NCBI GenBank assembly: GCA_019038695.1
Contig: JAHOYZ010000012.1
Coordinates: forward strand, 1 to 64,000
Reading direction: 5' to 3'
Length of the DNA stretch: 64,000 nt
From: Candidatus Zixiibacteriota bacterium
GTDB lineage: Bacteria; Zixibacteria; MSB-5A5; GN15; FEB-12
Part shown: positions 32,095 through 52,680 of the stretch, piece after piece
How positions within the stretch are numbered: the stretch's first letter is position 1
How the letters are laid out: the number at the start of each line of letters is the position of its first letter
Program-made: the position numbers and the translations under genes
Notes under the pieces: generated by a model
Database searches by the model: none
What the model saw: the letters and a program-made list of their open reading frames with translations, nothing else
What the model was told of the DNA's origin: nothing

Positions 32095-32183
<89 letters not shown>

Positions 32184-32318: not shown

Positions 32319-32380
32319 TAATTCATTACATCGCAATTAGTTATGCGTTCCCATGGGAAAATGGTCTGTAAAGGTTCTAG

Positions 32381-33399: not shown

Positions 33400-33402
33400 T
33401 TA

Positions 33403-35051: not shown

Positions 35052-35060
35052 TCTACCTAC

Positions 35061-35939: not shown

Positions 35940-37397
35940 TTACGACTCCTCAGATTTAATCATTCGGTTACTTATATACCCCATACTTGAATGAGGGCCG
36001 GGGCTAAGGCAATCTAATCTATTTGCCACTTTTCGAAGAACATCTAGTCCCTGGGTAGGAGAATTGCCAAGCTCAGGGCAGAAATGTTTTACCCAATACC
36101 ATTGCAGTTTTTCTGTCGGAAGTTCATCTAATTCCATAATCCAGTTTTCTTTAGAACAAAGTAGTGAATAGTTAGGTGCCCCGGGCATAATAACGACAAT
36201 AGCAGTATTTATTCTTTCAAGAATACGCATTTCACTTAGTTCTTCAGCAAACCTGATATTTTTTCCCAATGAGTCTAATGTCTCACCAGCACACCCAAGC
36301 ATAAATGCGGCCTGTAATTTGAAGTCGAAATCCTTACATATATTTGCTGCCTTTTTATGAGATTTTAGAGTTGAACCAAGACCATTATATTTTTGAATTT
36401 TGTCATCAGCAGAATCAAATCCTATAAAAATATTTTTGCCACCCACTTTTTGCAGTTTTATTGCCAAATCCTCTGTCATATGACTGCTTTGAACGTAAAA
36501 GGTCCATTCTATTCTGTAATTACTCAACAGTTCATTACAATGCAGAGCACTATATAAATCATCAAGCATTTGCTTATGATAACCTACGTTGTCACCATAG
36601 CATTTCAATAATATTCTGGAACCAAAAGGAATATTGTGATAGCTAATCAAATACTTAATATCATTTACAATGTCAGTGCCGCTACGCGAATACGAATTGT
36701 CATTTAATGAACAAAAACTACACCAGCCTGATATGCAACTATTATTACCATGGCGACGTTTCATGATATTTTGATACTTGCATCCAAAATGAGTAAAAAC
36801 TACAAACGCTGTATCGATATCTGAGTTAATGTTTTTATTGAATATGTGAGTATAATCGCTAATGTCTGTGTTTAATAATGAAAAATCAAATGGTACAAAT
36901 GCATCATATTCCCATTGATGTAAAGAAACGGGATTATGGATAGGTGTTCCGTTATCAGATATCCAACTAAGATTTGGAATCTCTTCAAAACCACTATTTC
37001 TTTGGATTGCTTTGATTAATTCTCCAAAAGGTATTTCACCCTTTCCACGTATAACATAGTCAATAAGGCCATTTCTCTTTAGCAATATTTGATTTGCCAG
37101 ATGTGTAGCGTGAGGACCACCAAGCACAACAATGCTATTATTGTTTTTGGCCTTTTGAGCAATCTCTAAAACATTTGAATAATTGAGTGTACTGCTTGCA
37201 GCAATTCCCACAATCTCAGCGGAAGGTACATAATCCTGATCATGATGAAGGTCTATAATCCTAATATTTGATTCAGGAAATAATTTCTTGAGAAAAGTCC
37301 CAATTGAAAGTATTCCACAGGGATAATATGCGCCATCATTTGCACCATGTCCAAAATTAGCAGGAACGGATACTAGATCAACTTGTATACTTGTCAT
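35940..37397 (-). CDS. B12-binding-domain radical SAM protein
   Basis: The N-terminal third resembles a cobalamin-binding Rossmann domain ('YYPCGILSIGTFLKKLFP', then 'IVVLGGPHATHLANQIL' and 'DYVIRGKGEIPFGELIKAI'), the order seen in B12-dependent radical SAM methylases and related enzymes. The radical SAM domain follows. Its cluster motif reads 'CISGWCSFCS', that is Cx4Cx2C rather than the standard Cx3Cx2C. Downstream pieces 'IEWTFYVQSSHMTEDLAIKLQKVG' and 'IFIGFDSADDKIQKYNG' are typical. It overlaps the DAC-like gene by 20 bp and abuts the permease gene, so it is an integral part of the operon. The substrate is unknown; modifying the transported molecule or the nucleotide signal are both possible. 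Confidence 0.8.
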   Translation of the reverse strand: MTSIQVDLVSVPANFGHGANDGAYYPCGILSIGTFLKKLFPESNIRIIDLHHDQDYVPSAEIVGIAASSTLNYSNVLEIAQKAKNNNSIVVLGGPHATHLANQILLKRNGLIDYVIRGKGEIPFGELIKAIQRNSGFEEIPNLSWISDNGTPIHNPVSLHQWEYDAFVPFDFSLLNTDISDYTHIFNKNINSDIDTAFVVFTHFGCKYQNIMKRRHGNNSCISGWCSFCSLNDNSYSRSGTDIVNDIKYLISYHNIPFGSRILLKCYGDNVGYHKQMLDDLYSALHCNELLSNYRIEWTFYVQSSHMTEDLAIKLQKVGGKNIFIGFDSADDKIQKYNGLGSTLKSHKKAANICKDFDFKLQAAFMLGCAGETLDSLGKNIRFAEELSEMRILERINTAIVVIMPGAPNYSLLCSKENWIMELDELPTEKLQWYWVKHFCPELGNSPTQGLDVLRKVANRLDCLSPGPHSSMGYISNRMIKSEES

Positions 37398-39765
37398 ATA
37401 TGCTTTCTACTTCTTTGGGATTTGGTCCTGACCCAATCATTATGGCCTTTGATGATATTATTTCCACAATTGGAATCCCTCCTAACCAAATTCTAATAGG
37501 CCCCGATTCTGAACACGTTATTGCAAGAGTATCTTCGCATAACATCGATATGGTGGATGCTTTTCTATGTCTAGTTCCAAAAGACAGTAATTTCGAGGGT
37601 TCTAAATTCGAAATTGTATTCATTTCAACTTTATCCATAAAACCGGGTAATTCTAATTTATCGTAATAGTGCGATAATTGGGGTAATATATTGGGATTGA
37701 AGTTGGTGTTAATTTCATTCCATTGAATTTTATAAGCATCATTCACGTCCGGCTTAGTTGGATGAATTAGTGGTTGCGTATTACTAGGGGGTTGTGTAAA
37801 ACATCCTGTGCTTATTCCACAAGTACTATCTGGTTCAGTATCGCCATTTTTATATAGCGGGCAACATATAATAGTCTCGCCATCAAGACCCGACATATCA
37901 GCATATTTACTACAAAAATCATTTGAAAGAAAAGTAGGCAAATTGGGGACTACTTTCCAACTAGTTCCTAACCTCGTTATTTGTATGTTATCGGGGTTTT
38001 CAAATTTACCTGCCTTCCTCAATAACCATAATGTGGAATCTTCCTTTTGATGCGTTGGACCTAAGAATACTAAACATCCGCGATTTAACCTGCATACCTC
38101 TGCAATCCCGGCACAAAGATTTATTAATTGGTTATTTTCAATATTATTAAATGTGACTAAGTAATGGGAAAAATAGCTTAGGCTAACAAACTCAGTTTTC
38201 ATATGGCATAAACAAGTATACAATAATGATGCGACTACGCTCCAATCATTCCATGTTTTTTTTCGTAGTTGTATTTTACTAAAATCTTCAGTCGAAGAAA
38301 TCTTTGGTGCCGTTGATACTTTTATTTTTTCGCCATCCTCCAAAGTGTATCCAAAATATAAGGCATGCTCTTTGCCCGCTTCAAAACCAGACCTTAAACA
38401 TCCGGGATAGTGGATATTTCGGTCATCCAGATCTTCAAAAAGCTCAATTGCAGACTGTGACATATAAATTATGCTTCTGGGCTTAATTATAACTTCACTA
38501 ATGTCATTACCTGAATTGATTAATTCCCACTCAAATTGGATATAAATATTAGGCCTGGATAAGAGAAATGCATTGGATAGAATGATTGGCTTAATCTTTT
38601 TGAAGAAATATTCCAATTGATTTGATGTTATTATTGAAGGAAAATCGTCTTGTTTAAACTCATATAGTATTTTTAAGTTGGATGGTCCAGCCGGTATGGT
38701 ATCTATTCCCTCTGTAATTAATGCGCGTAAAGACAGTGGTTTACCCTCATGATCAGAACCAATTAACTCATTCCCCAAATGCATAAAAAACGAATTAGAC
38801 ACATTTATTATGTTATTTTTCCAGGCACCCAATTTATTTTCAAATTCATCTTGATTAATATCGAGCGATTCTATTTTATTCGCTAATATTTTATGGAATT
38901 GAGTGGTCCACTCGTCCGCAATTTTAATTAAGTTTTCCATTTTAGGAGAATCAAGATTTGCACCGCAGTGACAGGCAACAGTGGTACTTGCAGTAACATT
39001 TAACATACTCCAAATTTTGTTTTCAAACTCAATCCTCTTGGTTACCCATCTCTGACCCCAGATCTTAGAGGCTATGACTGCGAGCTGAACCTTTCTTGCC
39101 CAACCATCCTTTGCATCAAACTTACTTGTACCGGATAAAACTTCATTTCTTAGATATAGCTCGCTAAACTCATCAAACTGGATATCCTCAACATTTTCAA
39201 TGAAATTCATACGGTTTTCTGTTATTATCTCCCTAAAACGTCCTTCATACTTGGATTCGAATTCATCTACAAATAGATGTGAAAGCAATGCCGTACTAAT
39301 ATCTAGGTACGAAACAAGTTCTTTCTGGGTATTTGTTTCGTTCGAGTATAATGGAATTTTAAATTCGACAGGATCAGCATTTGGGGTAGGGCCATGTAAT
39401 GTATCTGATGTAGTATCTACATGTATATTGTATACATTACTGTTTTCTATTATATAATGATTAATGCTTGCATTTCGTCCCAATAACTTTATATATCTTT
39501 TGTGAGCCCTTCCTAAATTATCAGGGTCTGTTTCAATACCTTTCTGTTTGAGATTATCAAAAACAGATAACTGATCTTGGTTTGTAGGATAAATGACTTT
39601 AGAAATACGACCATTAGAAATATACGGCGACCAGAGATTTAATGCAAACGATGCAGGACCACTATTATAATTACTACTACTTAATATATATTCCATCTGC
39701 GTAAATTCATCCAAACACAGATTTATAAGCTGGGATGCATACAAATAATAAGGATTAGTCAGCAT
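37378..39765 (-). CDS. large protein with C-terminal diadenylate-cyclase-like (DisA_N/DAC) domain
   Basis: The last ~240 of 795 residues match a DAC domain in order. 'LCAGIAEVCRLNRGCLVFLG' corresponds to the opening helix and strand. 'MSGLDGETIICCPL' (Asp near 628) is the DGA-type motif, here DGE. 'SFGTRHRKAS' (730-734) is the hallmark GTRHR, and 'ITCSESGPIRIWLGG' (Ser near 752) matches the VSEExGxI motif. About 100 residues separate DGE from GTRHR, against roughly 30 in DisA; the insert holds a Cys cluster. The N-terminal ~550 residues are unrecognised and may be a sensor. DAC domains make c-di-AMP from two ATP; activity here is inference. The gene lies 1 bp after the binding-protein gene. 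Confidence 0.65.
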   Translation of the reverse strand: MLTNPYYLYASQLINLCLDEFTQMEYILSSSNYNSGPASFALNLWSPYISNGRISKVIYPTNQDQLSVFDNLKQKGIETDPDNLGRAHKRYIKLLGRNASINHYIIENSNVYNIHVDTTSDTLHGPTPNADPVEFKIPLYSNETNTQKELVSYLDISTALLSHLFVDEFESKYEGRFREIITENRMNFIENVEDIQFDEFSELYLRNEVLSGTSKFDAKDGWARKVQLAVIASKIWGQRWVTKRIEFENKIWSMLNVTASTTVACHCGANLDSPKMENLIKIADEWTTQFHKILANKIESLDINQDEFENKLGAWKNNIINVSNSFFMHLGNELIGSDHEGKPLSLRALITEGIDTIPAGPSNLKILYEFKQDDFPSIITSNQLEYFFKKIKPIILSNAFLLSRPNIYIQFEWELINSGNDISEVIIKPRSIIYMSQSAIELFEDLDDRNIHYPGCLRSGFEAGKEHALYFGYTLEDGEKIKVSTAPKISSTEDFSKIQLRKKTWNDWSVVASLLYTCLCHMKTEFVSLSYFSHYLVTFNNIENNQLINLCAGIAEVCRLNRGCLVFLGPTHQKEDSTLWLLRKAGKFENPDNIQITRLGTSWKVVPNLPTFLSNDFCSKYADMSGLDGETIICCPLYKNGDTEPDSTCGISTGCFTQPPSNTQPLIHPTKPDVNDAYKIQWNEINTNFNPNILPQLSHYYDKLELPGFMDKVEMNTISNLEPSKLLSFGTRHRKASTISMLCEDTLAITCSESGPIRIWLGGIPIVEIISSKAIMIGSGPNPKEVESIYDKYTS

Positions 39766-39766
39766 A

Positions 39767-40891
39767 TTAATTATCCCCCATCCTCACAAATACTCCTTCT
39801 GTGATAATGACAAGGTCTACAGGTTTTACAACGTCACCATAAGAATCAAATGTTGTTATTCCTCCAACACCATTATATTGCTGTACTGAGTATAAAGCAT
39901 CCTTGATTTTATCCGAAGTTTCTGCCCCGCTTGTAAGAATACCTGCTATGATCTTAACGGCATCATAAGAGTTTGCGGCGATCCAATCTGGAGCAGACCC
40001 GTATTTATTAGTATAGGCTTCTACAAACCCCTTAACGTTTATTTCATCCGATTCAATATTAAATGGTGCAGTTGCACAGATCATACCTTCGGCTGCTTCT
40101 TTTGATATTTCAAGTAATTTCTTACTGACAGCTCCGGCACTAGCAAAATACTGGGGCGCATACCCCACCTCGCGGGATTGCTTCAATATCATGCCCATTT
40201 CAGTATCATGACCAGCAAGATATACCGCCTTTGCATTTGATTCTCGCAATTGCTCTATTTCCGCACGAAAATCAGTCTTGTTTTCATTATACCCGACGAT
40301 TTTGGCAACCTTGCCATTCAGGTCCTCAATCGCTTTCTTAAAGCTATCACGATACGAAATACCATTTGCTGCATTTGCATGCAATATAGCTACTTCTTTG
40401 AAATTGTATTGTTCTATACACGCTTTGGCTATTATCTCTGCTTGGAGAGTAGCGCTTTCTCTATTTCTGAATATGTAATCTCCCGCTTCTCTTATTTTGG
40501 TGCTTCCTGCGCCAGGGGTAAAAATAATTGTTTTTGTTTTATTGGCAAAAGGTGCACAAGTTAATACCTCATCGCTAAGGACCATACCTATGACCACATT
40601 TACCCTATCTATAGAAACTAGCTTGCGTAAAGCTGTCAATGCACCGCTACCCGATGATTCTGAATCTTCAATAATCAATTCAATAGGCTTATCTTTAAAA
40701 TTTTCTGTGGCGTTCAACTGGTCTGTGGCGAGTTGTATTCCTCGCAGAGATCGTTCACCATATGTTGCCCCACGGTCTGTTAGTGACAATATGATCCCTA
40801 CTTTATAAGAATCAGATTTATCGCTTGAACAACCCAACATTAAACAGGTTGACAAAATAATTACTGTTAATGTAATCCAAGTACTTTTCAT
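39767..40891 (-). CDS. livK: ABC transporter substrate-binding lipoprotein (LivK-like, periplasmic binding fold type I)
   Basis: A signal with lipobox LMLGC marks a lipid-anchored receptor. The fold is the leucine/isoleucine/valine-binding type: 'YKVGIILSLTDRGATYGERSLRG', 'VNVVIGMVLSDEVLTCAPFAN', 'FTPGAGSTKIREAGDYIFR', 'DWIAANSYDAVKIIAGIL'. The length (374 residues) is normal. GGAG precedes the ATG. As first structural gene, before the DAC-like gene, it fits a sensor or importer of a small ligand whose uptake is tied to nucleotide signalling. Confidence 0.9.
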   Translation of the reverse strand: MKSTWITLTVIILSTCLMLGCSSDKSDSYKVGIILSLTDRGATYGERSLRGIQLATDQLNATENFKDKPIELIIEDSESSGSGALTALRKLVSIDRVNVVIGMVLSDEVLTCAPFANKTKTIIFTPGAGSTKIREAGDYIFRNRESATLQAEIIAKACIEQYNFKEVAILHANAANGISYRDSFKKAIEDLNGKVAKIVGYNENKTDFRAEIEQLRESNAKAVYLAGHDTEMGMILKQSREVGYAPQYFASAGAVSKKLLEISKEAAEGMICATAPFNIESDEINVKGFVEAYTNKYGSAPDWIAANSYDAVKIIAGILTSGAETSDKIKDALYSVQQYNGVGGITTFDSYGDVVKPVDLVIITEGVFVRMGDN

Positions 40892-40920
40892 AATTCCAAA
40901 TCTCCATTTATTATTAATTA

Positions 40921-41109
40921 CTACCTTTTGTGTTCCTCAATTAATTCATCAATTCGTCGCATAGCCAATGGAGAGGGCCGCCCTCGGTTATTTTCCCAAC
41001 GATTTACAGTTGAAAATGTGACACCGATCTTAAAGGCGAATTGCTCTTGGGTTAGGTTGAGTCTTTTTCTTAATTTTTTTATTTTTTGAGGTATATTTTT
41101 GGAAACCAT
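40921..41109 (-). CDS. small XRE-family helix-turn-helix regulator
   Basis: A 62-residue protein made almost wholly of a Cro/C1-type helix-turn-helix ('IKKLRKRLNLTQEQFAFKIG', then 'VTFSTVNRWENNRGRPSPLA'). Proteins this short usually act as dimers. It lies 29 bp upstream of the binding-protein gene on the same strand, so it probably leads the operon and controls it. A near-palindromic AT-rich 16-mer at 41171-41186 could be its operator. Confidence 0.85.
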   Translation of the reverse strand: MVSKNIPQKIKKLRKRLNLTQEQFAFKIGVTFSTVNRWENNRGRPSPLAMRRIDELIEEHKR

Positions 41110-41170
41110 AAAGATATAAACTCCTGAAAGCAGCCACCAATTAGATTGGCAAAGCCATTAACGCATATTA

Positions 41171-41186
41171 TATAGCATATGATATA
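41171..41186. promoter_or_regulatory. possible operator for the XRE regulator
   Basis: TATAGCATATGATATA is palindromic except at one pair of positions and centres on CATATG. It lies 62 bp upstream of the regulator start. In such AT-rich sequence this could be chance. Confidence 0.25.
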
Positions 41187-41299
41187 AATACAAAATGCAA
41201 TGTCAATATTTATTGTATCATTATACTGGGCAATAAGTCAGAGGGTGTTTCTAGTAAACCGAAAAACCATTATAAATTTGTTGTGCATGAATCAAACAT

Positions 41300-41446
41300 T
41301 TACTTTGGGTTTTTGAGGGTTTCCACGTTTTTTCCCTTTAAGTAATCATTGGCCAATAATTCTGTCAAAAAATCAATAAACGATTCCATGCGTTCTTTAG
41401 GAATTGGCGGAAGATCAACGTCAATTATTACTTCCTTTTTCATCAT
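41300..41446 (-). CDS. small hypothetical protein (48 aa)
   Basis: An ATG-ATG start at 41446/41443 has GGAG about 7 bases upstream. The product begins MMKKEVIIDVDLPPIPKERM and ends in KNPK; it is helical and charged, with no signal or membrane segment. The 'MKKEVIIDVDLPPIPxER' start looks like a coherent small protein rather than noise. It sits between the XRE gene and the conserved right end of block 1. A regulator partner or an element-encoded accessory protein is possible. Confidence 0.5.
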   Translation of the reverse strand: MMKKEVIIDVDLPPIPKERMESFIDFLTELLANDYLKGKNVETLKNPK

Positions 41447-41505
41447 AGAATTTCTCCTTCAAAAATAGCCAAATAGTAATGTATATGAGTATGAAGTCCA
41501 TGTTA

Positions 41506-41699
41506 ACATACACCTCTTTCTAACAATTTTCTAACAAAACGAGCAAGAACAACAGATAACAAGAAGAAACACCAGACACTGAGTTTCCCGTAAGTAATTG
41601 CTATTACTACAGGATAGTGTCTGGTGCTTTCTGTTGTTCGGACTATCGAACAGGCTCATAACCCGAAGGTCAGAGGTTCAAATCCTCTCCCCGCCACCA
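41506..41699 (+). repeat. conserved right end of block 1 with tRNA-Met 3' fragment
   Basis: In order: two TTTCTAACA direct repeats 11 bp apart (41517, 41528), an outer inverted pair AACAACAG/CTGTTGTT (41548, 41631), an inner pair CACCAGACACT/AGTGTCTGGTG (41570, 41616) enclosing a further small palindrome, then the tRNA anticodon loop CTCATAA, CCCGAAGGTC, an intact T arm (AGAGG/CCTCT) and CCCCGCCACCA. It is about 95% identical to 47625-47818 over the same 194 bp. Confidence 0.85.
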
Positions 41700-41760
41700 T
41701 AAATAGCTACATCATAACAAGTTACACGTTTAACAAGACGAGGATCTGTCAGGGTTTTGA

Positions 41761-41840
41761 CCCGAAGGTCAATTGATCATTTTCATCCATTACTCATTGA
41801 TCTAAACAACTAATCATCAGGGGGCTCGGTTACTTCGTGA
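41761..41840. repeat. left-end block of block 2 (second core copy)
   Basis: CCCGAAGGTCAA at 41761 lies exactly 99 bp after the core in the tRNA fragment (41662). Seven bases before it stands TCAGG, as in the anticodon core site. The far end (GTTACTTCGTGA, about 41829-41840) is a diverged form of the inverted GTGACCTTCGGG seen in the other two blocks. Confidence 0.45.
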
Positions 41841-42074
41841 TTTTGAACAATTAACTCTGAAGAGCAGTTATCTAACCGTTTTCTAACAATAAATCCCAGC
41901 ATTAGATTCAAAGATGTGAAGACTCAGCAGTTTTCATCTGAGGTATTGCAGGGATCATCCCCAGTCTCATCATCGAGTCAACTCTTTACCGATATCCGAC
42001 GATACTGTATATTGACTCATTGTCATGGGGTTGTGGAGATGGAACCTATTAGAGGATTTGGTGTTGAAGCAATA

Positions 42075-42407
42075 ATGGCTGAAAAAGATTGCAAAACAAT
42101 ACTATTTCGTTTTGTTGCAGCGCTGACTCTGGTCTTACTTTTGGTAGCACCACTCCTACCTGCCCCTACGGGAGCACAGGTGTCTGCCTGTGATGATTGT
42201 GACGACTGTGACGATCATGACGATGGTGACGGTGAATCAGTTTGTGGATGTATTGGCTGCCTGCCGGTTACAGTAGCTTGTGTCTCAGATTTCTCTGAGG
42301 ACAGCTATACTCTGGATGCCATCACTTATTCCATAATCAATCCTTTCATCGACATTGAGTGTGAGTTCTTCGATCGCGTGGATAGACCACCCCAGACACT
42401 CCTCTAA
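42075..42407 (+). CDS. small exported Cys/Asp/His-rich protein of metal efflux operon
   Basis: From the ATG at 42075 (110 residues) the product has a typical signal peptide ending near PTGAQVSA; in-frame upstream starts at 42039 and 41916 would bury it. The mature protein begins with a dense metal-ligand run (CDDCDDCDDHDDGDG), followed by CGCIGC. It ends 'FDRVDRPPQTLL', a tail seen in small proteins encoded ahead of Czc/Cus-type pumps. It probably binds metal in the periplasm and is the first gene of the efflux operon, 150 bp before the adaptor gene. Confidence 0.65.
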   Translation: MAEKDCKTILFRFVAALTLVLLLVAPLLPAPTGAQVSACDDCDDCDDHDDGDGESVCGCIGCLPVTVACVSDFSEDSYTLDAITYSIINPFIDIECEFFDRVDRPPQTLL

Positions 42408-42554
42408 TAGTTTCTTATAGCCGACTAGTTTTTTGCATCTAGTTTCGGAAGCGCAACATAGCTATAATTCTGACTCATTCAAGGGTCTAAGATTCTATTT
42501 GGTACTCATGGTCGCCAATGAGCAACTGCGAGATTCACCAAATGTGGAGGAGTA

Positions 42555-44282
42555 ATGATAATGAAAAAGCGTCTGTGGATCGCCGGTATACTATTGGTGA
42601 TCATAAGTGTGGCAATCACGTCAGTGACTCTGTTAGGTGATAGCGAAACAGATAAGGACGAAACTGCCACTTTGAGCATAAGCCCACAGTCATCAAACAA
42701 AGCGGTCGTGGTGGATTGGTGTGCAGAACATTCTGTGCCAGAATCAGAGTGTACCCAATGCGACCCTTCACTGATTGATAAATATAAAGCAGCTAATGAC
42801 TGGTGTGCCGGGCACGCTCTCCCAGAATCTCATTGTAGACTCTGTAATCCGGAAATCACGTTTCCCCAGGAAGAGTTGCTAGCTAGTGCCAATGCGGGTC
42901 ACAATGGAATAGCCTCACCTGAGAAGGCACAGAATAATGTTGATCTTGACTGGTGTGCTGAACATTCGGTACCCGAGTCACAGTGTACCCAATGCAATTC
43001 TTCGTTAATAGAGCAATACAAAATAGCTCACGACTGGTGTGCCCCGCACGCTCTCCCAGAATCTCATTGTAGACTCTGTAACCCTGAGATCGCGTTCCCT
43101 CAAGAAGAGACTATAAGACTACGTCTGGCGGAATCACCTGAAAACGAGATTAAGGTCACGCTCTTCTTCCGCCCAAATGCAGATGTGTGCGCTACAAATG
43201 GCGCCCTCATCCAATTTGTATCGTCAAGAACTGCCGAGAGGTCGGGCATCGCCGTTCGCCGGGCGTTAGCCGCCCCTTACGAATCTTCAATCGATGCTCC
43301 CGCAGAGATTATGTTCGACGAGAACAGCACCTCGGTTATTGCTTCGGCTGTGAAGGTGCTTGTATCGCGATGGTTAATCTCACCCGGCGATATCGTCGCA
43401 AAGGGTGATCCAATAGCGATGTTACAATCGTCGGAAATGGCAGAATTACAGGCAAGGTTGATTTCAACACATGCTGAATTCATGGTTCAGCAGAAGGAAC
43501 TAGAAAGAGATGAGGCTCTGGTATCCAAGAAACTCGTCTCGGAGAGTGAATATGAGCGTCGGGTAGCTCTCCATAAGAAGGCCCAAGCAGAGTTGACAAG
43601 TGTGCGTGGTTTGTTGCTGTCAAGTGGCATCAGTGATGCTGACATCGATGACCTGCTCGATAAGGGTACGGTTACAAATGAGTTTGTCTTTAGAGCACCT
43701 AACTCAGGCTTGATTGCTAAACGACTTGCGCAAGTTGGAGAGTTGCTTGAAGACGGTCAAGCGTTAGCAATACAAACAGACCCGGCCTCGTTGTGGATAG
43801 AAGCACATTTGACAGAAGATCAAATGAAGCATGTTTTCCTTGGCCAGGACTTACTCTTCGCATCTGACGACCGCGCACTAAATCGAGTAGGAGCCAAAGT
43901 CATATGGGTGTCTCCTTATCTTGACTCTCATACTCGAACCGGAGTGGTCCGAGCTCAAGTTGTTGAAAACGGACATTATCTCCGGGCAGGCGAGTTTGGC
44001 CGGGTCACTATCTCGGAAGCTCTTGACATTGAATCCGTCTTGGTGCCCAAAGATGCAGTTCAATGGGAAGGCTGCTGTAATGTGGTGTTCGTCAGAGAAG
44101 CGATCGATCGTTTCCGTCCCCGCAAAGTACAGATTGCCGACGGCCCCGGATCATATTACCAGATAACTGAAGGGCTTTTACCAGGGGAAGAGGTTGTCGT
44201 TGAAGGTTCATTCCTTTTGAAGACTGAATTGAAAAAGACTAGTATCGGCGCCGGTTGTTGTGGTATCGAACCTGTAGGATAA
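42555..44282 (+). CDS. RND metal efflux periplasmic adaptor with four N-terminal Cys/His repeats
   Basis: Links the inner-membrane RND pump to an outer-membrane channel. After an N-terminal membrane anchor (KKRLWIAGILLVIISVAI) come four copies of a WCxxHx(V/L)PESxCxxC motif, as two near-identical pairs (from about 42715 and about 42949, offset 234 bp). They are likely metal-binding. The rest is a standard CusB/CzcB-type adaptor: lipoyl-like 'VKVLVSRWLISPGDIVAKGDPIAML', a helical hairpin ('AELQARLISTHAEFMVQQKEL'), and beta-barrel 'LWIEAHLTEDQMKHVFLGQDL'. GGAGGAG precedes the start. The duplicated pair is unusual; one or two repeats are more common. Confidence 0.92.
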   Translation: MIMKKRLWIAGILLVIISVAITSVTLLGDSETDKDETATLSISPQSSNKAVVVDWCAEHSVPESECTQCDPSLIDKYKAANDWCAGHALPESHCRLCNPEITFPQEELLASANAGHNGIASPEKAQNNVDLDWCAEHSVPESQCTQCNSSLIEQYKIAHDWCAPHALPESHCRLCNPEIAFPQEETIRLRLAESPENEIKVTLFFRPNADVCATNGALIQFVSSRTAERSGIAVRRALAAPYESSIDAPAEIMFDENSTSVIASAVKVLVSRWLISPGDIVAKGDPIAMLQSSEMAELQARLISTHAEFMVQQKELERDEALVSKKLVSESEYERRVALHKKAQAELTSVRGLLLSSGISDADIDDLLDKGTVTNEFVFRAPNSGLIAKRLAQVGELLEDGQALAIQTDPASLWIEAHLTEDQMKHVFLGQDLLFASDDRALNRVGAKVIWVSPYLDSHTRTGVVRAQVVENGHYLRAGEFGRVTISEALDIESVLVPKDAVQWEGCCNVVFVREAIDRFRPRKVQIADGPGSYYQITEGLLPGEEVVVEGSFLLKTELKKTSIGAGCCGIEPVG

Positions 44283-44293
44283 AGGTGTGACAC

Positions 44294-47200
44294 ATGTTAC
44301 GAAAACTGGTTGAATCAGTACTAAAGTACCGGTTTGTTGTCCTCGCATTAGGTGGCATCTTTTGTCTGTTTGGTTTGGTTGCACTTTGGGACTTACCTTT
44401 TGATGCATTTCCTGATACTACACCAATTCTTGTGCAGGTTAATGTCTCCGCTTCCGGTTGGGCACCCGAGGATCTTGAGAGGTTAGTTACCTTTCCCATC
44501 GAACAGGCACTAACAGGTCTAACCGGGCTTGATGAAGTACGATCCATGACAAAATACGGGCTTTGTCAGGTAACAACTATATTCGAAGACGGCACAGATT
44601 TGTATCTGGCACGCCAACAGGTGAGTGAACGACTGTTGACAGCAGAGCTGCCTGATGGTGTCGGCGTACCTCAACTCGGACCGGTATCAACAGGTCTTGG
44701 TGAGGTATTTCACTATATTGTGATAGGTTCGTCAGGCGATCCGTCGGAGCCACGCACGGCTCAGGATTGGCTCATCAAACCGCAACTTCAAGCTGTTCCT
44801 GGCGTGGCGGAAGTCAACAGTTGGGGGGGATTCACAAAACAATATCTGATTCTCTTCGATCCTGCCAAGCTCGCGCAATATAGTCTCGCTGTGAATGACG
44901 TAGTGTCGTCGATTAATGATGATTTGGGGAACGTTCCGGGTGGCCAGATTATTCGCGGCGGAGAAATGACCCTGGTTCGTGGGATTGGTGTTGTTGAATC
45001 CATGGAAGAAATCGAGAACATTGTCGTGGACAGCCGCGAGGGGGTACCTATCCTCGTTGCTGACATTGCCGATGTCGTTATCGGTCATGAACTGCGACGG
45101 GGTGCTACTACTTACAACGGCCAGGGCGAGGTTGTCCTGGGTTTGGGCTTTATGATCACCGGAGAGAATCCGCCTGCGGTGACTGAGCAGCTGGCAAAAC
45201 GGCTTGCCGAAGCTACCGCTGCATTGCCTGACGGCATAGAAGCAACCACAGTGTACGAGCGCACGGATCTGGTCAACGATGTCTTGTCTACTGTCGAACA
45301 CAACCTCTTCTATGGGGCTCTGCTGGTTGTGGCGGTCCTATTTATATTTCTGGGCAGTCTCCGCGCCGGATTGATTGTCGCCTCAGCTATCCCGCTTTCA
45401 ATGCTCTTTGCTTTCGACATGATGTCCAGGGTGGGAATCACTGGAAGTCTTATGAGTCTTGGGGCTATAGACTTTGGATTGGCGGTGGACAACGCGGTGA
45501 TTCAGGTCGAAAACTCGGTGCGAAGACTGGCTCAGGCGGGAGAGTCTGTCAGTCGTCTACAGGTTATTCGTGACGCAATCCTTGAAGTAAGAAAACCGAC
45601 ACTATTCGGTGAGTTGATTCTCATAATAGTCTATCTGCCAATTCTTACCCTGGAAGGAGTGGAAGGCAAACTCTTCCAACCAATGGCTCTGACGGTCGTG
45701 TTTGTCCTGACAGGTTCGCTGCTTCTGTCGTTCACTGTGATCCCGGCCTTGATTGGTACTTTTCTGACCAAGACCGTTCGCGATCGCGAACCTCTGTTCG
45801 TCATTTGGTTACGTCATCTCTATGAACCAGTTTTAGACTGGGCCTTACGTTTTCGCCGGACTGTTCTGGTAGCAGCCCTGGTGCTAATCGCGGGCGGCAC
45901 GTTTCTGTTCAGCCAACTTGGATCTGAGTTTGTACCACGGTTGAGTGAGGGAACTATAGTCATCAATTTTGTCCGCTTGGCAGGTATTTCCCTGGATCAA
46001 TCGGTCAAATACAATACTCAAATCGAACAGAATCTGCTTGAGGCCTTTCCGGACGAAATCAAACACATATGGACACGGACCGGCACCGCTGAGTTGTCGA
46101 CAGATCCGATGGGTCTAGAATTGTCAGATATGTTCATCTCCTTGACACCAAGAGATCAATGGACCAAAGTGAGCAGCCAGCAGGATTTGGTAGCTGCTAT
46201 GGATCTGGAACTAAGTGATCTTCCGGGACAGAATCGAATATTCACTCAGCCAATCGAAATGCGCGTAAACGAAATGATCGCCGGTATTCGATCAGATATA
46301 GGGATAAAATTATTCGGAGATGATTTGTTGGTCCTGGTAGATAAAGGAGAAGAGATTGCATCCGTAGTCAAGCAAATACCAGGTGCTGCAGATGTATCTG
46401 TCGAGCAGATGACGGGGCAGCCGCAACTTCGCCTGGCAATAGATCGGCAAAGATTAGCTCGCTTCGGGTTATCGGCGCGCGAAGTTCTCGCTTCCATTGA
46501 AAGCATTGGGGGACTGACGGTAGGAGATGTCTTTGAAGGACAACGCCGATTCGAGTTGGTTTTGCGAGTGGATACAACGCGGATTAAGGGTCCGGAGGAC
46601 ATCAATCAAGTGTTGCTTGCCTCGAGCACCGGTAGTTTAATAGGTCTTGATCAAGTGACAATCGCCACGCTTGATGAGGGACCAGCCACTATTACCAGGG
46701 AATGGAGTAAACGTCGAGTTGTAGTACAGTGTAACGTTCGTGATCGCGATATGGGATCGTTTGTGAGTGAATTGCGGGATCGCCTTGATTCTGACATATC
46801 CCTCCCGACCGGTTATTTCATCAGGCTCGGAGGACAGTTTGAGAACCTCGAACGGGCTCGCACCAGGCTGGCGATTGTAGTGCCCATAGCCCTGTTTCTG
46901 ATTTTTGGATTGCTCTATTGGACATATAAGTCAGCAAGAGATGCTATACTAATCTTCTCGGGAGTGCCACTTGCGGCGCTAGGAGGTGTAGTATCACTCG
47001 CACTTCGCGGCATGCCTTTTTCCATATCTGCAGGTGTTGGCTTTATAGCTCTCTCTGGTATTGCCGTGCTCAATGGTCTTGTACTTGTGTCGTCGATCAA
47101 ACATCTTCGCTCTGAAGGTAAGGACATCTTAGGTGCAGTTAAGCGAAGCGCATTAACACGACTCCGCCCGGTCTTTATGACTGCCTTAGTCGCTGCGTTT

Positions 47201-47362
47201 GGTTTCATACCAATGGCCATCTCTACGAGTATCGGGGCTGAGGTTCAACGTCCGCTGGCAACCGTCGTGGTCGGTGGCATTCTGACTTCAACGGTGCTTA
47301 CCCTGATCGTATTGCCTGTGCTTTACATAACCTTCGGAAGAAGAACGGAATCCGAGTCGTAG
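44294..47362 (+). CDS. czcA: CzcA-type heavy-metal RND efflux pump
   Basis: The inner-membrane proton-driven pump of a tripartite system, 1022 residues with the twelve-helix RND layout. The helix-4 motif 'DFGLAVDNAVIQVEN' is close to the DFGxxxDGAxxxVEN signature of divalent-cation (Co/Zn/Cd/Ni) pumps and unlike the CusA (Cu/Ag) motif; Asn replaces the usual Gly. 'DAFPDTTPILVQV' near the N-terminus is the family start, and the C-terminal half ends 'TSTVLTLIVLPVLYI'. It follows the adaptor gene by 11 bp. No outer-membrane factor gene is in the block, so the channel must come from elsewhere. Confidence 0.93.
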   Translation: MLRKLVESVLKYRFVVLALGGIFCLFGLVALWDLPFDAFPDTTPILVQVNVSASGWAPEDLERLVTFPIEQALTGLTGLDEVRSMTKYGLCQVTTIFEDGTDLYLARQQVSERLLTAELPDGVGVPQLGPVSTGLGEVFHYIVIGSSGDPSEPRTAQDWLIKPQLQAVPGVAEVNSWGGFTKQYLILFDPAKLAQYSLAVNDVVSSINDDLGNVPGGQIIRGGEMTLVRGIGVVESMEEIENIVVDSREGVPILVADIADVVIGHELRRGATTYNGQGEVVLGLGFMITGENPPAVTEQLAKRLAEATAALPDGIEATTVYERTDLVNDVLSTVEHNLFYGALLVVAVLFIFLGSLRAGLIVASAIPLSMLFAFDMMSRVGITGSLMSLGAIDFGLAVDNAVIQVENSVRRLAQAGESVSRLQVIRDAILEVRKPTLFGELILIIVYLPILTLEGVEGKLFQPMALTVVFVLTGSLLLSFTVIPALIGTFLTKTVRDREPLFVIWLRHLYEPVLDWALRFRRTVLVAALVLIAGGTFLFSQLGSEFVPRLSEGTIVINFVRLAGISLDQSVKYNTQIEQNLLEAFPDEIKHIWTRTGTAELSTDPMGLELSDMFISLTPRDQWTKVSSQQDLVAAMDLELSDLPGQNRIFTQPIEMRVNEMIAGIRSDIGIKLFGDDLLVLVDKGEEIASVVKQIPGAADVSVEQMTGQPQLRLAIDRQRLARFGLSAREVLASIESIGGLTVGDVFEGQRRFELVLRVDTTRIKGPEDINQVLLASSTGSLIGLDQVTIATLDEGPATITREWSKRRVVVQCNVRDRDMGSFVSELRDRLDSDISLPTGYFIRLGGQFENLERARTRLAIVVPIALFLIFGLLYWTYKSARDAILIFSGVPLAALGGVVSLALRGMPFSISAGVGFIALSGIAVLNGLVLVSSIKHLRSEGKDILGAVKRSALTRLRPVFMTALVAAFGFIPMAISTSIGAEVQRPLATVVVGGILTSTVLTLIVLPVLYITFGRRTESES

Positions 47363-47370
47363 AATATTGT

Positions 47371-47394
47371 GATCCGGAGTATGATAACTCCGGA
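47371..47394 (+). terminator. hairpin after the RND pump gene
   Basis: ATCCGGAGT and ACTCCGGAT form a perfect 9-bp stem with a 6-base loop, 8 bp after the stop codon. The following sequence (TCTATC) is only weakly T-rich. Confidence 0.5.
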
Positions 47395-47551
47395 TTCTAT
47401 CACATTGATGGTTTTTACAGAAGCACATCGTCTTAGTTCTTTGACTTCAGCAGCCGCATCTGCGGAAGCGATCGCGAGCAATAGCGGTGTTGGTGTAGGA
47501 CTTGCGGGTGGCGAGCGAATTTTGGTTCCCGTACCTGGGATGTATATCATT

Positions 47552-47571
47552 CACTCTCTGAAGAGAGTGAT
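47552..47571. other. stem-loop near the right end of block 2
   Basis: TCACTCTC-TGAA-GAGAGTGA is a perfect 8-bp hairpin with a tetraloop, about 50 bp before the conserved end repeat. It could be a terminator or part of the end structure; the other blocks do not share it. Confidence 0.35.
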
Positions 47572-47624
47572 GCAGTTGGTCAGTTCGCTATGATCTCATG
47601 TGATGGATGTGTCACTCGCGGCTG

Positions 47625-47818
47625 ACATACACCTCTTTCTAACACTTTTCTAACAAAACGAGCAAGAACAACAGACAATAAGAAGAAACACCAGACACTG
47701 TGTTTCCCGTAAGTAATTGCTATTACTACAGGATAGTGTCTGGTGCTTTCTGTTGTTCGGACTATCGAACAGGCTCATAACCCGAAGGTCGAGGGTTCAA
47801 ATCCCTCCCCCGCCACCA
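47625..47818 (+). repeat. conserved right end of block 2 with tRNA-Met 3' fragment
   Basis: Same 194-bp layout as at 41506-41699: direct TTTCTAACA repeats at 47636 and 47647, inverted pair CACCAGACACT (47689)/AGTGTCTGGTG (47735), anticodon loop, CCCGAAGGTC, T arm and CCCCCGCCACCA. The T stem is GAGGG/CCCTC here against AGAGG/CCTCT at 41.7 kb; both pair perfectly, so the differences compensate. No 5' half of the tRNA is present upstream. Confidence 0.85.
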
Positions 47819-47881
47819 AAATTTGTTGTCACTCATCCACTTACGAAACATCATAGATTAAATCCTGTTATGGGTCACCAG

Positions 47882-47961
47882 CCCGAAGGTCAACATTGTT
47901 TTATCTAATATTATCTATTGTTGTTTCTTATTAGGGATTTTTCTGCTTTGTGACCTTCGGG
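47882..47961. repeat. 80-bp left-end block of block 3 with inverted CCCGAAGGTC ends
   Basis: Starts CCCGAAGGTCAA and ends TTGTGACCTTCGGG. The start is 101 bp after the tRNA core at 47781. It aligns over its whole 80-bp length with 32381-32460, including an AT-rich middle with TATCT and GTTTCT pieces. Confidence 0.55.
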
Positions 47962-48029
47962 TAATTTGTTGAAAATCTGAAATAAACTATGTAAAATATC
48001 GGTTATTATTATCCGTTTCTTAATGACAT

Positions 48030-49112
48030 TTACGCTTTACACTTCTCCAGTTCAATCTCTCCTCCGGTAAAGTACTTCTTCCGGAAGTACAGGGCGACAT
48101 TGACCAATCCGATTAGTACCGGGACCTCTACTAAGGGGCCAATTACAGCCGCAAAGGCCACACCTGAGTTGATTCCGAATACAGCCACGGCCACGGCGAT
48201 GGCTAATTCAAAGTTGTTTGATGCAGCTGTGAAGCTGAGAGTTGTTGCCTTTCCATAGTCAGCCTTAGCCTTTTTGCTCATGTAGAAACTAACTAAGAAC
48301 ATCACCACAAAGTAAATCAATAACGGGACGGCAATACGAACCACGTCCATCGGAATCTTTACAATCAGTTCGCCCTTGAGGGAGAACATCACGAATATAG
48401 TGAAGAGCAACGCAACCAATGTGATCGGGCTTATGCGTGGTATGAATTCACGATGATACCATTCTTTCCCCTTAGCCTTGACTAGGATCAATCTAGTCAA
48501 CATGCCTGCCAAGAACGGAATCCCAAGATAAATGAAGACACTCTCGGCAATTTGGCCAATCGTTACGTCTACAGCTACTCCTTCAAGTCCGAAAAGAGGA
48601 GGTAACTTAGTTACGAAGATCCAGGCGAATACTGAGTAGAACAGTACTTGAAAGACTGAATTGAAGGCTACTAGCCCAGCGGCATACTCAGGGTCTCCAT
48701 CTGCTAGGTCGTTCCAAACAATGACCATCGCAATACATCGGGCTAGCCCGATCATTATGAGACCGACCATGTACTCGGGATATCCCGAGAGAAATGCTAT
48801 CGCCAGAACAAACATTAGAATTGGGCCAATAACCCAATTCTGGATCAGGCTCAAGAAAAGGATCTTGTAATTGCGAAATACACGCCCCATCTCCTCATAG
48901 CGCACCTTAGCCAGGGGCGGGTACATCATGAGAATTAGACCGATTGCGATCGGGATGTTGGTCGTCCCGACTGAGAAAGTATCCCAGAATCCGGCAATGC
49001 CGGGGGAAAAGTGACCAATTGCGACACCAATTCCCATAGCCGCAAATATCCAAACTGTAAGATAGCGGTCCAGAAAGCCAAGTCTTTTGACAATCGAACC
49101 TTCAGTCGTCAC
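48030..49112 (-). CDS. acr3: Acr3-type arsenite efflux permease
   Basis: Exports arsenite (as As(OH)3) across the inner membrane. It is a 360-residue protein with about ten membrane helices. The motif '[19 protein letters not shown]' holds the Cys conserved in Acr3 proteins, and '[22 protein letters not shown]' is the second hallmark of this BASS-superfamily branch. It starts with GTG at 49112, with GGAG upstream. It closes the arsenic operon, 147 bp after the ABC ATPase gene. Confidence 0.93.
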
Positions 49113-49258
49113 GATAGCAACTCCTTCTGATCACGCTGATATATTCGCTCAATCGGTGTTCATGATGGTTGTTATAGTATCCTCAAACTGTTTCCCCCTC
49201 ACCTTCGAAAATCTTATTGTTCTGGTACTTAGTTACAATCAGCACCAGCTTGCATCCC

Positions 49259-49924
49259 TCAGGACACAAGCATACCTTCTCTTAGATTCAGCACGGCCCC
49301 CGCTCTTGCAGCTGCCTGAGGGCTGTGGGTTACCATTATCACTGTCTTTCCATGAGTTCTATTTAAGTCCCCTAAAATATCAAGAATCTCCTCAGAAAGA
49401 GCGGGATCGAGGTTACCGGTCGGCTCATCGGCCAGAATCACGTCTGGCTCATTCGCAAGGGCTCGGGCAATTGCTACTCTTTGCTGCTGACCAACCGAAA
49501 GTTCTCTGGGATGGAAATCCTTGCGATTCGCTAATCCCAATATATCCAATAGCTCTATTGCGCGCTGTGTTGGGTTCGTTCCATTTCTGCCCTGCGGCAG
49601 CATAGGTAACAACACGTTTTCAACGGCCGTCAGATACGGCACCAAATTAAATGTCTGAAGCACAAATCCAATCGTCTGATTACGGAATGCTGCTATCCTT
49701 GAGGAGGAGAGAGTGTATAAGTCCTTATCGCCATACTGCACTTTACCCGCACTGGGTTGAATGAGCCCTCCCAGAGACAACAGAAGAGTGGTCTTCCCCG
49801 ATCCGGAGGGACCTGTCACAGCTACAAAACTACCAGCATCTATAGACAGTGAGACATCTTTTAAGGCATGTACTTGGTGCCTGGAACGAGTATATGTTTT
49901 TGTGAGACTTTGAATGACAAACAC
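49259..49924 (-). CDS. MacB/LolD-type ABC transporter ATPase
   Basis: I start at the GTG at 49924, 2 bp after the permease stop, because AGGAGG lies 7 bases upstream and the LolD/MacB family starts here ('[21 protein letters not shown]'); the longer frame to 50188 runs inside the permease gene. Walker A '[16 protein letters not shown]', signature '[17 protein letters not shown]' and Walker B '[13 protein letters not shown]' are intact. With the FtsX-type permease upstream it forms a type VII ABC pair. Such pairs work in lipoprotein release, efflux or envelope stress; here the arsenic context suggests export or repair during metalloid stress. Confidence 0.9.
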
Positions 49925-49926
49925 GC

Positions 49927-51153
49927 TCAGACCTCCTGCATAATGACAGCTGGGTCGATCCGAGCCGCCCGATAAGTGGGATACCAACTGCCTGCCAGAG
50001 CGATTACAACCGAAACCAAGACCGACCACCACAAGTAACTCATCACAGGGCCTATCTCCAAACCGGCCAGATAAGGTCCGAGAATGACCGCAGACACCGT
50101 TCCGACCGCATATCCAAGAACACCGCCAAACAGACCCAGAATGATGGCCTTGGAAAGGAAGAGCCAATAGATGTGTCGTCTTGCCCATCCGATCGTAATG
50201 AGAGTTCCTATTTCCTTGCGGCGTTCTTCAACATTAGCCCACATGTAGTTGCCAATTGAAAAGGACCCTACGACGATAATGATCACAAGTAGGACCAGGG
50301 CAACCTTGGCCATCAGTGTGTTGGTTTCAATCTGAGTATTAACGATATGCCCGATGGTAGTTATGCGCGTATCCGGAAGAATATTACGCAGCTTTCCAAG
50401 CAAACCGTCTGATATTTCGCTGCAACACCCCATGATCTCAATGTTACTCACCTGACCTTCGATACCTAGAAGACGCTGGGCTGTGTGAAGGTGAGCGAAA
50501 ACCCTGTTGTCGTCGATTGTTCCCGTTTCCGACAGCACGTGCGTTACCTGAAGGTTCTCGCCTTCGATCGGTATAGCGGAACCTTTTTCGATTTTGAAAC
50601 GCTCGGCAATCAGACTGCCAATCCACACTTCATTGCTGCCCAGAGAATCAACGGTCTTGCGTTGAGCCTTAAGATCTGTATCGGTGAGTGATGACTCTTT
50701 GTCTTTTGAGGGAGCACAGGCCAGTTCCAACTCAGCTCCCATGAGGCCGGAGGCCTGCCAGATCGGCTTTGAGGCTAACTCATTTGCCGGGAGGATCCCG
50801 GTTAGAATGATCGATGAGCCGTCAATGTCAATTCGGCGACTCAGCTTGGGCGACATGTTATCGACCCCGGGAATCATCGATGTTGCAATTCGCTCAACGT
50901 ACTCCTCCGGGAAGGTAGGGGCGTCGACATCAGCGGTATAATAGTCATCTACAGTGGCACCTTGCGGAAGCACCATAATATTAGCGCCAAGCAGATCCAA
51001 CTTCTTGGCCACCATTTGGCGTGAAACAGAAGTCACAGACTGGATTGCAACTATCACCGCAATGCCTAAGGTAATGGCCAATAGGCCTGAAACCAGGCGA
51101 CCCTTACGCTGAGATATTTCTTTGAGTACGACGGTTCTGAAGTTGAATGGCAT
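49927..51153 (-). CDS. FtsX/MacB-type ABC permease
   Basis: A 408-residue permease with an N-terminal helix ('GRLVSGLLAITLGIAVIVAIQSVTSVSRQM', residues about 17-46), a large periplasmic MacB-like domain, and three C-terminal helices ('VALVLLVIIIVVGSFSIGNYM', 'AIILGLFGGVLGYAVGTVSAV', 'SYLWWSVLVSVVIALAGSW'). 'RRKEIGTLITIGWARRHIYWLF' is the FtsX coupling motif. The periplasmic domain contains 'MGCCSEI', a vicinal Cys pair that could bind arsenite or copper, but this is speculative. It is 3 bp downstream of the thioredoxin-like gene. Confidence 0.88.
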   Translation of the reverse strand: MPFNFRTVVLKEISQRKGRLVSGLLAITLGIAVIVAIQSVTSVSRQMVAKKLDLLGANIMVLPQGATVDDYYTADVDAPTFPEEYVERIATSMIPGVDNMSPKLSRRIDIDGSSIILTGILPANELASKPIWQASGLMGAELELACAPSKDKESSLTDTDLKAQRKTVDSLGSNEVWIGSLIAERFKIEKGSAIPIEGENLQVTHVLSETGTIDDNRVFAHLHTAQRLLGIEGQVSNIEIMGCCSEISDGLLGKLRNILPDTRITTIGHIVNTQIETNTLMAKVALVLLVIIIVVGSFSIGNYMWANVEERRKEIGTLITIGWARRHIYWLFLSKAIILGLFGGVLGYAVGTVSAVILGPYLAGLEIGPVMSYLWWSVLVSVVIALAGSWYPTYRAARIDPAVIMQEV

Positions 51154-51156
51154 TGG

Positions 51157-51924
51157 CTACTTCCCGCCCTCTTTCTTTGCGGGGGTTGGAGCGCACGTCT
51201 TCCCACTGTTGGGAGGGCAGCAACCACTGCTGACTTTCTTGGTCGCAGCCTGAACCAGATTTGTTACGTCTACTGGTCCGTTGAAAGTACCGGTCAATTG
51301 TCCCTGTGCATTGAGCACGACGGTGACAGGCTCAGTCGCCTGCAAATTCACTTTGAGTTGCTTGAGAAAATCCGATTCAGCTGGATCATCCATTGCAACA
51401 TCTATTGAAGCGCATTTCCCCTGCATTTGTGTGCAAGCGGCAGCGCATCCTTTGGCAACATCGGACGTGGTAGCCATTCCGGAGCGTGACGCTGTCAAAT
51501 AAACGGCTTGCCCGGATTGAAGAGCCTTCAGAACTTCTGCTTTCTTGGGGCTGGGTACCATGGCTACCAACTGCTGTGTTGTCAGCTTGGAAGCAATATT
51601 GCCACCTGCCATGATTCCGTTGGATGCAAAGACAAGGACCAAAGGAACCGGCGCAGCGGCCAGCTTATACTTCTTGATGAAATCCGAGTTGGCCGCATCA
51701 TCCCTGTTCGACTCGATCATCACGGCCCCGGGGACTTGAGCCATAGCTGCCTGAATCATTTGTTTTGCCTGATCGATTCCAATTGCACCTGGTTCGGTGA
51801 CGAGAACGAAGGCAACATGGCCATCTGAGGTTGCCGTCTGAAGCTGATCGCTTGTGGAAGCGAAAGCGACAAGAGGCAGACATGTCACGAAGGCTAAGAC
51901 CGCAATCTTCTTGAAGTTGATCAT
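51157..51924 (-). CDS. exported tandem thioredoxin-like protein with Cys-rich tail
   Basis: Signal peptide 'KKIAVLAFVTCLPLVAFAS', then two similar domains of about 100 residues. Each looks like a thioredoxin-fold unit with 'DxAxSDFxKxxK' and 'PVxLVxxxxGxxxG' patterns, but neither has a CxxC active site at the usual place. The C-terminus is Cys-rich ('SSGCCPPNSGKTCAP'). The second ATG (51924) is better spaced from GGAG than 51927. Its place right after arsR and before the ABC pair suggests a periplasmic metalloid-binding or redox role. I do not recognise a named family. Confidence 0.7.
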   Translation of the reverse strand: MINFKKIAVLAFVTCLPLVAFASTSDQLQTATSDGHVAFVLVTEPGAIGIDQAKQMIQAAMAQVPGAVMIESNRDDAANSDFIKKYKLAAAPVPLVLVFASNGIMAGGNIASKLTTQQLVAMVPSPKKAEVLKALQSGQAVYLTASRSGMATTSDVAKGCAAACTQMQGKCASIDVAMDDPAESDFLKQLKVNLQATEPVTVVLNAQGQLTGTFNGPVDVTNLVQAATKKVSSGCCPPNSGKTCAPTPAKKEGGK

Positions 51925-52079
51925 CATTACTCCTAACTATGCATTACCTAATTTCGTTACTATTATCATAATTCAACGCCGACCAAGCCGGCTTCCTTCA
52001 TCTTACTATGACCGCTGCATTGTGTACCACTAAAGCTGGTAAGACCTATGAGCATACAGAAGCGGTCGGTCGCATCTGT

Positions 52080-52487: not shown

Positions 52488-52500
52488 AACATCTCCTACA

Positions 52501-52525
52501 ATTCGCCAATCATCGAATTATTATA
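52501..52525 (-). promoter_or_regulatory. arsR promoter/operator candidate
   Basis: On the minus strand TATAAT (52520-52525) lies 33 bp before the arsR start. Immediately downstream of it is the inverted repeat ATTCG-N8-CGAAT (52501-52518), a reasonable ArsR operator covering the transcription start. No good -35 box is at the ideal spacing. Confidence 0.4.
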
Positions 52526-52680
52526 CAGCAATATCGGCAAAAGTTTCCATTTGTCAATGGGATTTTTTTCTCAAGGAGCCGGGCAACTACATGTACAAAC
52601 TCGTCCTAATAACGTTAGCTACTTGTATTCATGCGCATTATGCGCCAGTGGCAGCTAATACTTGCAGTTCTATAGTTTTG

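Follow-up and report, generated by a model that had tools for sequence, protein, structure and literature searches.

Repeated unit at the array junctions

The stretch of DNA analysed here, called the window, comprises the first 64,000 nucleotides of contig JAHOYZ010000012.1 (assembly GCA_019038695.1) of a Candidatus Zixiibacteriota bacterium. It carries an array of three gene cassettes behind a tRNA-Ser(CGA) gene (Table 1), and the subject of this work is the unit repeated at the cassette borders. Two copies, 41506-41699 and 47625-47818, were 194 bp each and differed at exactly 10 positions, in keeping with the equal length and roughly ten differences reported by a first-pass annotation of this DNA. 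The annotation regarded the copies as element ends, which held in part: they were not the ends of one element only, and were found to be two junctions of a longer array with units at 41506, 47625 and 52682, the last of which (52682-52847) matched the first 167 unit positions only. The 194-bp unit is very probably an attR/attL-type junction between two tandem site-specific integrative elements.

A total of 61 genomes of the window's order within Candidatus Zixibacteria were surveyed, in which genomes were numbered with G and loci with L; G000 is the genome of the window and is 96% complete. Domains were assigned with Pfam and NCBIfam, and tRNA genes with ARAGORN. A match to the unit was detected in 55 of the 61 genomes, many of these matches being the tRNA 3' end alone, and full or partial arms were present in a large minority, often several in tandem.

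When 43 units were aligned, the unit was seen to consist of three segments: integrase-arm DNA of about 149 bp, the core CTCATAA of 7 bp, equivalent to the anticodon loop of the initiator tRNA (tRNA-fMet), and the tRNA-fMet 3' half. The mean column identity of the 43 arms was 82% over 155 columns; the arms opened with a pair of TTTCTAACA repeats at 11-bp spacing, went on to the inverted repeat CACCAGACAC/GTGTCTGGTG and closed at CTCATAA. Downstream of CTCATAACCC most copies continued with the tRNA 3' half and several distal copies with unrelated DNA. Because the distal copies change just past CTCATAACCC, the crossover would lie in or beside the anticodon loop, and we infer its exact position from this change. 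The anticodon loop is a classic target place for tRNA-targeting integrases.

Pairing of the T stem and its origin in the initiator tRNA

The ten differences between the two copies were located at 41526, 41557, 41560, 41582, 41672-41674 and 41686-41688, and the last six form the three outer pairs of the T stem. As the first-pass annotation had described, both versions, AGAGG/CCTCT and GAGGG/CCCTC, paired completely (5/5 each); since both stems pair in register, a mere shift of the alignment was ruled out. The two versions were then compared with intact genes. The intact tRNA-fMet of the window's genome (L006/L010) had the T stem AGAGG/CCTCT, with a 3' half identical to that of the 41506 copy, and GAGGG/CCCTC was present in the intact tRNA-fMet of the relative G017. 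The proposal that the elements had each come with the 3' half of a separate functional tRNA-Met gene was thus well supported: both T-stem versions were found in intact tRNA-fMet genes, so that the refuting case named in the first-pass annotation, intact genes showing neither version, did not arise. Besides AGAGG, the intact tRNA-fMet genes of the order contained GGAGG, AGGGG, GCAGG, ATAGG, ACAGG, GGCGG, GCGGG and GTAGG.

Among 17 distinct tRNA-fMet 3' halves, 96.5% of the T-stem cells were paired and 20 cells were changed on both sides, compared with 7.6 in shuffles (0/500), giving a covariation score of 0.62. That both T-stem versions pair is explained by the source of the 3' halves, each of which is a piece of a functional initiator tRNA gene or derives from one. 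The covariation thus belongs to a functional tRNA and travels with the elements.

Two kinds of insertion were also observed in the tRNA halves. One of 16 nt, of the form CACNN-NNN-NNGTG-GTT, lies between CCCGAAG and GTC in some halves (L010 8827-9028 and 7096-7297; L044, L048, L021, L049 and L058) and keeps a 5-bp stem through paired changes (CACAC/GTGTG, CACAT/ATGTG and CACCT/AGGTG). No intact tRNA-fMet with this insertion was found in 80 genomes, the single match with GGG upstream being an array unit of G037. The other, a T-loop insertion of about 36 nt of the form CTTCGCT...CTCAG, was observed in L042 (10526-10747) and L044 (4205-4457, 11253-11506 and 16315-16563).

Upstream hairpin

The nested inverted repeats described in the first-pass annotation were present, with an outer pair AACAACAG (41548-41555)/CTGTTGTT (41631-41638) and a second pair CACCAGACAC (41570-41579)/GTGTCTGGTG (41617-41626), but they were not equally conserved as pairs: in the aligned units 82.8% of the outer, 87.4% of the middle and 72.5% of the inner cells were paired, fewer than in the T stem. 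The covariance analysis of many copies that it had called for gave a divided result, in which the T stem covaried strongly and the upstream hairpin hardly (score 0.16), and the changes in the hairpin were mostly one-sided, in its middle helix. The left hairpin arm was gone in four copies (two in L047, one each in L048 and L055).

These data bear on the suggestion that the unit is itself a structured RNA or a hairpin under selection. A transcribed unit in which hairpin and T arm act as RNA would suit the predicted fold of the strand, far better than that of shuffled versions (z = -6.1), and the covariation of the T stem. However, the strong covariation is limited to the tRNA half, the middle helix varies mostly on one side, the left arm has been lost from four copies, no Rfam family came close to its gathering score in a search of 41000-53000, and terminator-like sites were not detected in the vicinity of the unit. 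We consider a structured RNA scarcely credible, and the upstream inverted repeat reads better as the putative protein-binding arms of an integrase attachment site.

Integrases at tRNA-fMet and tRNA-Ser

A tyrosine integrase of about 430 aa with Phage_integrase and SAM-like domains, designated IntF, had homologues of 62-100% identity in 8 of the 61 genomes, and in all eight the gene ended inside or beside tRNA-fMet. It was convergent to tRNA-fMet in G030, G004, G010, G042 and G015, where the ends of the two genes overlapped; the match in G044 stopped 58 bp from tRNA-fMet, and truncated IntF genes stood at tRNA-fMet in G035 and G060. A further fragment of 213 bp at a contig end of G024 was not placeable relative to a tRNA. 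At nine left ends that lacked an intact integrase (L010, two in L042, three in L048, L050, L056 and L141), a C-terminal remnant of IntF came right after the tRNA half; such remnants also stood directly after intact tRNA-fMet in L055 and L143.

The IntF gene contains, in its 3' part, a TTTCTAACA-GT-TTTCTAACA pair located at +70 and +81 relative to the end of the tRNA. The left ends of IntF type had their TTTCTAACA pairs at these distances, with two exceptions (69/80 and 71/82), and the right arms held the same 11-bp-spaced pair. This pattern suggests that putative arm sites lie to either side of the core, in the manner of lambda-type attachment sites.

A second integrase type, IntS, was also detected, and tRNA-Ser followed by IntS or its remnant was common in relatives. 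IntS or a remnant was followed by the CTCATAA core in G037 (two places) and G055, and the order was reversed in G043. In many relatives (L104-L123) IntS immediately followed tRNA-Ser genes with four different anticodons, and it also followed tRNA-Met and tRNA-Gln genes; a few of these sites bore TTTCTAACA motifs as well. IntS was considered as the mobilising enzyme and rejected, since most copies stand behind tRNA-Ser with no CTCATAA core downstream, and such enzymes would be helpers at best.

Autonomous elements and cassettes

The lengths of 39 cassettes were measured. The first element of G030 was 26.8 kb and that of G004 26.7 kb; the former encoded IntF, a TrwB/TraG-like coupling ATPase and a Replic_Relax protein, with similar proteins in the latter. 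The two were 78% alike over the first 1.5 kb and 89% over the last 199 bp, and most of the interior was different. The remaining 37 cassettes were 0.25-9.4 kb, with a median of 2.4 kb for all 39. An intact integrase was absent from 37 of the 39, with the attachment (att) ends kept, as in cis-mobilizable elements (CIMEs), and eighteen cassettes had one open reading frame only (at least 120 aa). The cargo included metal efflux, arsenite export, FeoB, AbiE and Fic proteins, transporters and secreted repeat proteins. Cassettes were oriented toward the tRNA in 25 cases and away in 10 (p = 0.017, uncorrected for relatedness).

At its left end, a 2.4-kb cassette of G027 matched 209 bp of the G004 element (86%); at its right end it matched 1.2 kb (72%) and the terminal 193 bp (85%), with a Fic-type gene beside the right arm in both. 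Because this cassette corresponds to the ends of the G004 element without its middle, cassettes arise at least partly as internal-deletion derivatives.

Small, often single-gene cassettes, each with a conserved imperfect palindrome at the same end, recall integrons. In a strict integron the hairpin would serve as the attC site, which an integron integrase would recombine in its folded, single-stranded form. The favourable folding of the strand and a platform-like site preceded by tRNA-Ser and an integrase remnant could be adduced for this. Against the integron-integrase profile TIGR02249 (cut-off 265 bits), however, IntF scored 65.9 bits and IntS 84.7 bits; recombination is placed, judging from sequence, in the tRNA core outside the hairpin; four copies lack the left hairpin arm; and arm motifs lie on both sides of the core as in phage-type sites. 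A strict integron is accordingly very improbable.

Distribution and occupancy of the arrays

The related units formed tandem arrays behind intact tRNA-fMet or, as in the window, at a second site. Elements terminated by a 3' half stood behind an intact tRNA-fMet in L010, L042, L049, L051, L055 and L143. On contig C23 of the window's genome, the intact tRNA-fMet was followed by a 2.7-kb cassette with its unit and a 1.7-kb cassette with its unit; the tRNA-fMet 3' halves without an arm in this genome were those at 32271 and in the intact gene of C23. The arrays are not assembly artefacts, because they were also present in the single-contig genome G066.

Within one genus, G013 and G035 shared tRNA-fMet flanks of 90% and 80-87% identity, with one 1.3-kb cassette in the former versus five cassettes in the latter. 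The antiporter gene and tRNA-fMet with no arm motif within 130 bp were found in L135, L137, L040 and L164. Named records with the arm pattern were mostly Candidatus Zixiibacteriota bins, and contigs named Calditrichaeota CLD4 and Bacteroidales were also among them. Two contigs named Calditrichota and Ignavibacterium were not read as a sign of spread across phyla, since their genomes were placed in the same order. The unit was not found in IMG/VR and phage records, and plasmid matches were essentially the generic tRNA-fMet 3' end.

The junctions could be real and the arrays nevertheless relics of old integrations, no longer mobile. The absence of a matching integrase from the window's genome, the decayed T stems and insertions of some halves and the truncated integrases of G035 and G060 would fit such a decay. 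But the right arms have kept about 82% identity per column across many genera, array content varies between genomes of one genus, and several genomes encode full-length integrases with the catalytic domain. Dead arrays are therefore rather doubtful.

The array of the window

Cassette 1 contained a branched-chain amino-acid-type ABC transporter, a B12/radical SAM protein, a 795-aa protein and a periplasmic binding protein. The 795-aa protein (37378-39765), between the B12/radical SAM gene and the periplasmic binding protein of the transporter cluster, had no Pfam or NCBIfam match. Cassette 2 encoded an HlyD/CusB-like protein (42555-44282) and a CusA/CzcA RND metal-efflux pump (44294-47362). In the former, an N-terminal stretch of 162 bp was duplicated (42714-43109, 81% identical); it was rich in Cys/His pairs (WCAEHSVPESECTQC) and is possibly metal-binding. 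In cassette 3, an ACR3 arsenite efflux protein (48030-49112), an ABC/FtsX exporter (49259-51153), a 256-aa protein and an ArsR-type regulator (52080-52487) were identified.

At their left ends, cassettes 1 and 3 have in common an 83-nt block, 80% identical (32379-32461 and 47880-47962), in which GAAGGTC and the inverse motif GACCTTC are separated by about 67 bp. Left ends of a similar kind were also seen in G006 and G055.

Table 1. Features of the cassette array and its junctions in the window
Feature	Position	Strand	Basis and remarks
tRNA-Ser(CGA) gene adjoining the array	32095..32181	+	ARAGORN; secondary site, not the tRNA-fMet locus
Remnant of IntS C-terminus, reads ADHLSKAVDKLPFG then stop	32212..32256	+	By eye against the IntS C-terminus ...PDHLADAVEKLEF
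Left array junction TGACCTTCAGG-CTCATAA-CCCGAAGGTCA	32264..32292	+	Sequence; 7-bp overlap 32275-32281; similar in L048, L056, L105
tRNA-fMet 3' half, left end of cassette 1	32275..32318	+	Decayed T stem AGGGA/CCCCC; match spans 32271-32318
Cassette 1 cargo	32319..41505	.	Pfam
Right attachment arm, cassette 1 (putative)	41506..41654	+	43-unit alignment, distances; TTTCTAACA at 41517-41525 and 41528-41536, inverted repeat CACCAGACAC/GTGTCTGGTG
Core overlap CTCATAA, putative crossover	41655..41661	+	Arm conserved in all units up to the core, distal copies diverge just after
tRNA-fMet 3' half, AGAGG/CCTCT	41655..41699	+	Stem 41672-41676/41684-41688
Arm-type pair TATCTAACC/TTTCTAACA, 11-bp spacing	41869..41888	+	Sequence, motif scan; near left end of cassette 2
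Cassette 2 cargo	41700..47624	+	Pfam, NCBIfam
Right attachment arm, cassette 2 (putative)	47625..47773	+	Alignment, distances
Core CTCATAA and tRNA-fMet 3' half, GAGGG/CCCTC	47774..47818	+	Stem 47791-47795/47803-47807
Cassette 3 cargo	47819..52681	-	Pfam, NCBIfam
Cassette 3 right arm and distal junction	52682..52847	+	Core CTCATAA 52830-52836; non-tRNA sequence after CCCGAAGGTCA

Discussion

The mechanism we propose takes up the junction anatomy, the integrase beside tRNA-fMet, the arm distances, the deletion derivative, the variable occupancy within a genus and the T-stem covariation, all read from the sequences; from them we infer binding by IntF, mobilisation in trans and current activity. 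Autonomous elements encode IntF at their left end, and this integrase would bind putative TTTCTAACA arm sites to either side of the anticodon-loop core CTCATAA and recombine that core. At each junction the stretch of about 149 bp would be the right attachment-site arm of the element upstream, and the tRNA-fMet 3' half would be carried by the downstream element, restoring the tRNA upon entry into an intact gene. Most elements of the arrays are integrase-less; they retain both ends and their cargo, and would need IntF in trans to move.

Several observations weigh against reading the units as junctions of elements moved by IntF. The window's genome lacks IntF, its best integrase being 31% identical (96% complete genome), and has no tyrosine integrase gene next to its attachment sites, unlike the eight IntF-carrying genomes. 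Its array sits at a secondary site behind tRNA-Ser(CGA), away from tRNA-fMet. The empty form of this site, which would be expected to read TGACCTTCAGG-CTCATAA-CCCGAAGGTCAATAGATCC, was not found, and the neighbouring gene was not beside tRNA-Ser(CGA) in relatives. Cassettes 1 and 3 have another type of left end, with neither an IntF tail nor clear TTTCTAACA sites, and no excised circle or transfer was observed. In the hairpin, paired changes were in slight excess (46 cells versus 28 in shuffles), behind which there may be some selection for a folded strand; the excess could also reflect the relatedness of the copies.

A bolder version, in which the tRNA-fMet locus of Zixibacteria would be an integron-like capture platform made of phage-type parts, where IntF from any resident autonomous element captures and reorders single-gene cassettes in trans, each capture swapping the 3' half of the initiator tRNA, is speculative and we think it unlikely; if true, the initiator tRNA of the cell would evolve by exchange with mobile elements.

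The arrays offer a plausible route by which adaptive genes for metal efflux, arsenite export, toxin-antitoxin systems and transporters could be gained in cassette form without integrons, in a lineage represented here by metagenome bins alone. They also supply an example of an essential initiator tRNA whose variation is traceable to mobile elements, and a warning that compensatory changes within a repeat may stem from a tRNA origin rather than from a new RNA.

Comparison with known systems

No paper on such arrays in Zixibacteria was found in the literature searched, which is not proof of absence. Chromosomal integrons resemble them in lining up short units, most with a single gene, that each have one site for recombination at a fixed place; the Zixibacteria arrays differ in having no integron integrase or attC, a double-strand-type core with arms, and an integrase carried by some of the elements and not by a fixed platform. 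Tycheposons of Prochlorococcus are cargo-carrying elements that integrate at tRNA genes, many of them non-autonomous. They are likened here by general description and belong to a different phylum.

Tandem tRNA-anchored islands, their decay to elements with att ends only and their accretion have already been described (PMC5704250). The CIMEs and accretion of ICESt1 type share with the present cassettes the loss of integration and transfer genes, the kept attL and attR, and the tandem position with autonomous relatives (PMC5704250); the Zixibacteria elements are smaller by comparison, with a median of 2.4 kb and often a single gene, stand in longer runs and use one arm design order-wide. In Dehalococcoides, several ssrA-specific genomic islands stand in tandem at ssrA (PMC3146451). 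These are alike in their position behind an RNA gene, 3'-end repeat borders, frequent lack of an integrase and strain-specific cargo, but they use a serine recombinase at tmRNA (PMC3146451), whereas the Zixibacteria family has a tyrosine integrase at the tRNA-fMet anticodon loop and about 149 bp of conserved arm DNA at each junction. The mechanism of tRNA-targeted integration, decay and tandem accretion is thus known. What is new is the small size of the cassettes, their single-gene content and the one arm design across an order, and such compact arrays are an unusual, integron-like variant, which offers a natural comparison for the shrinkage of non-autonomous elements to one gene and two att arms.

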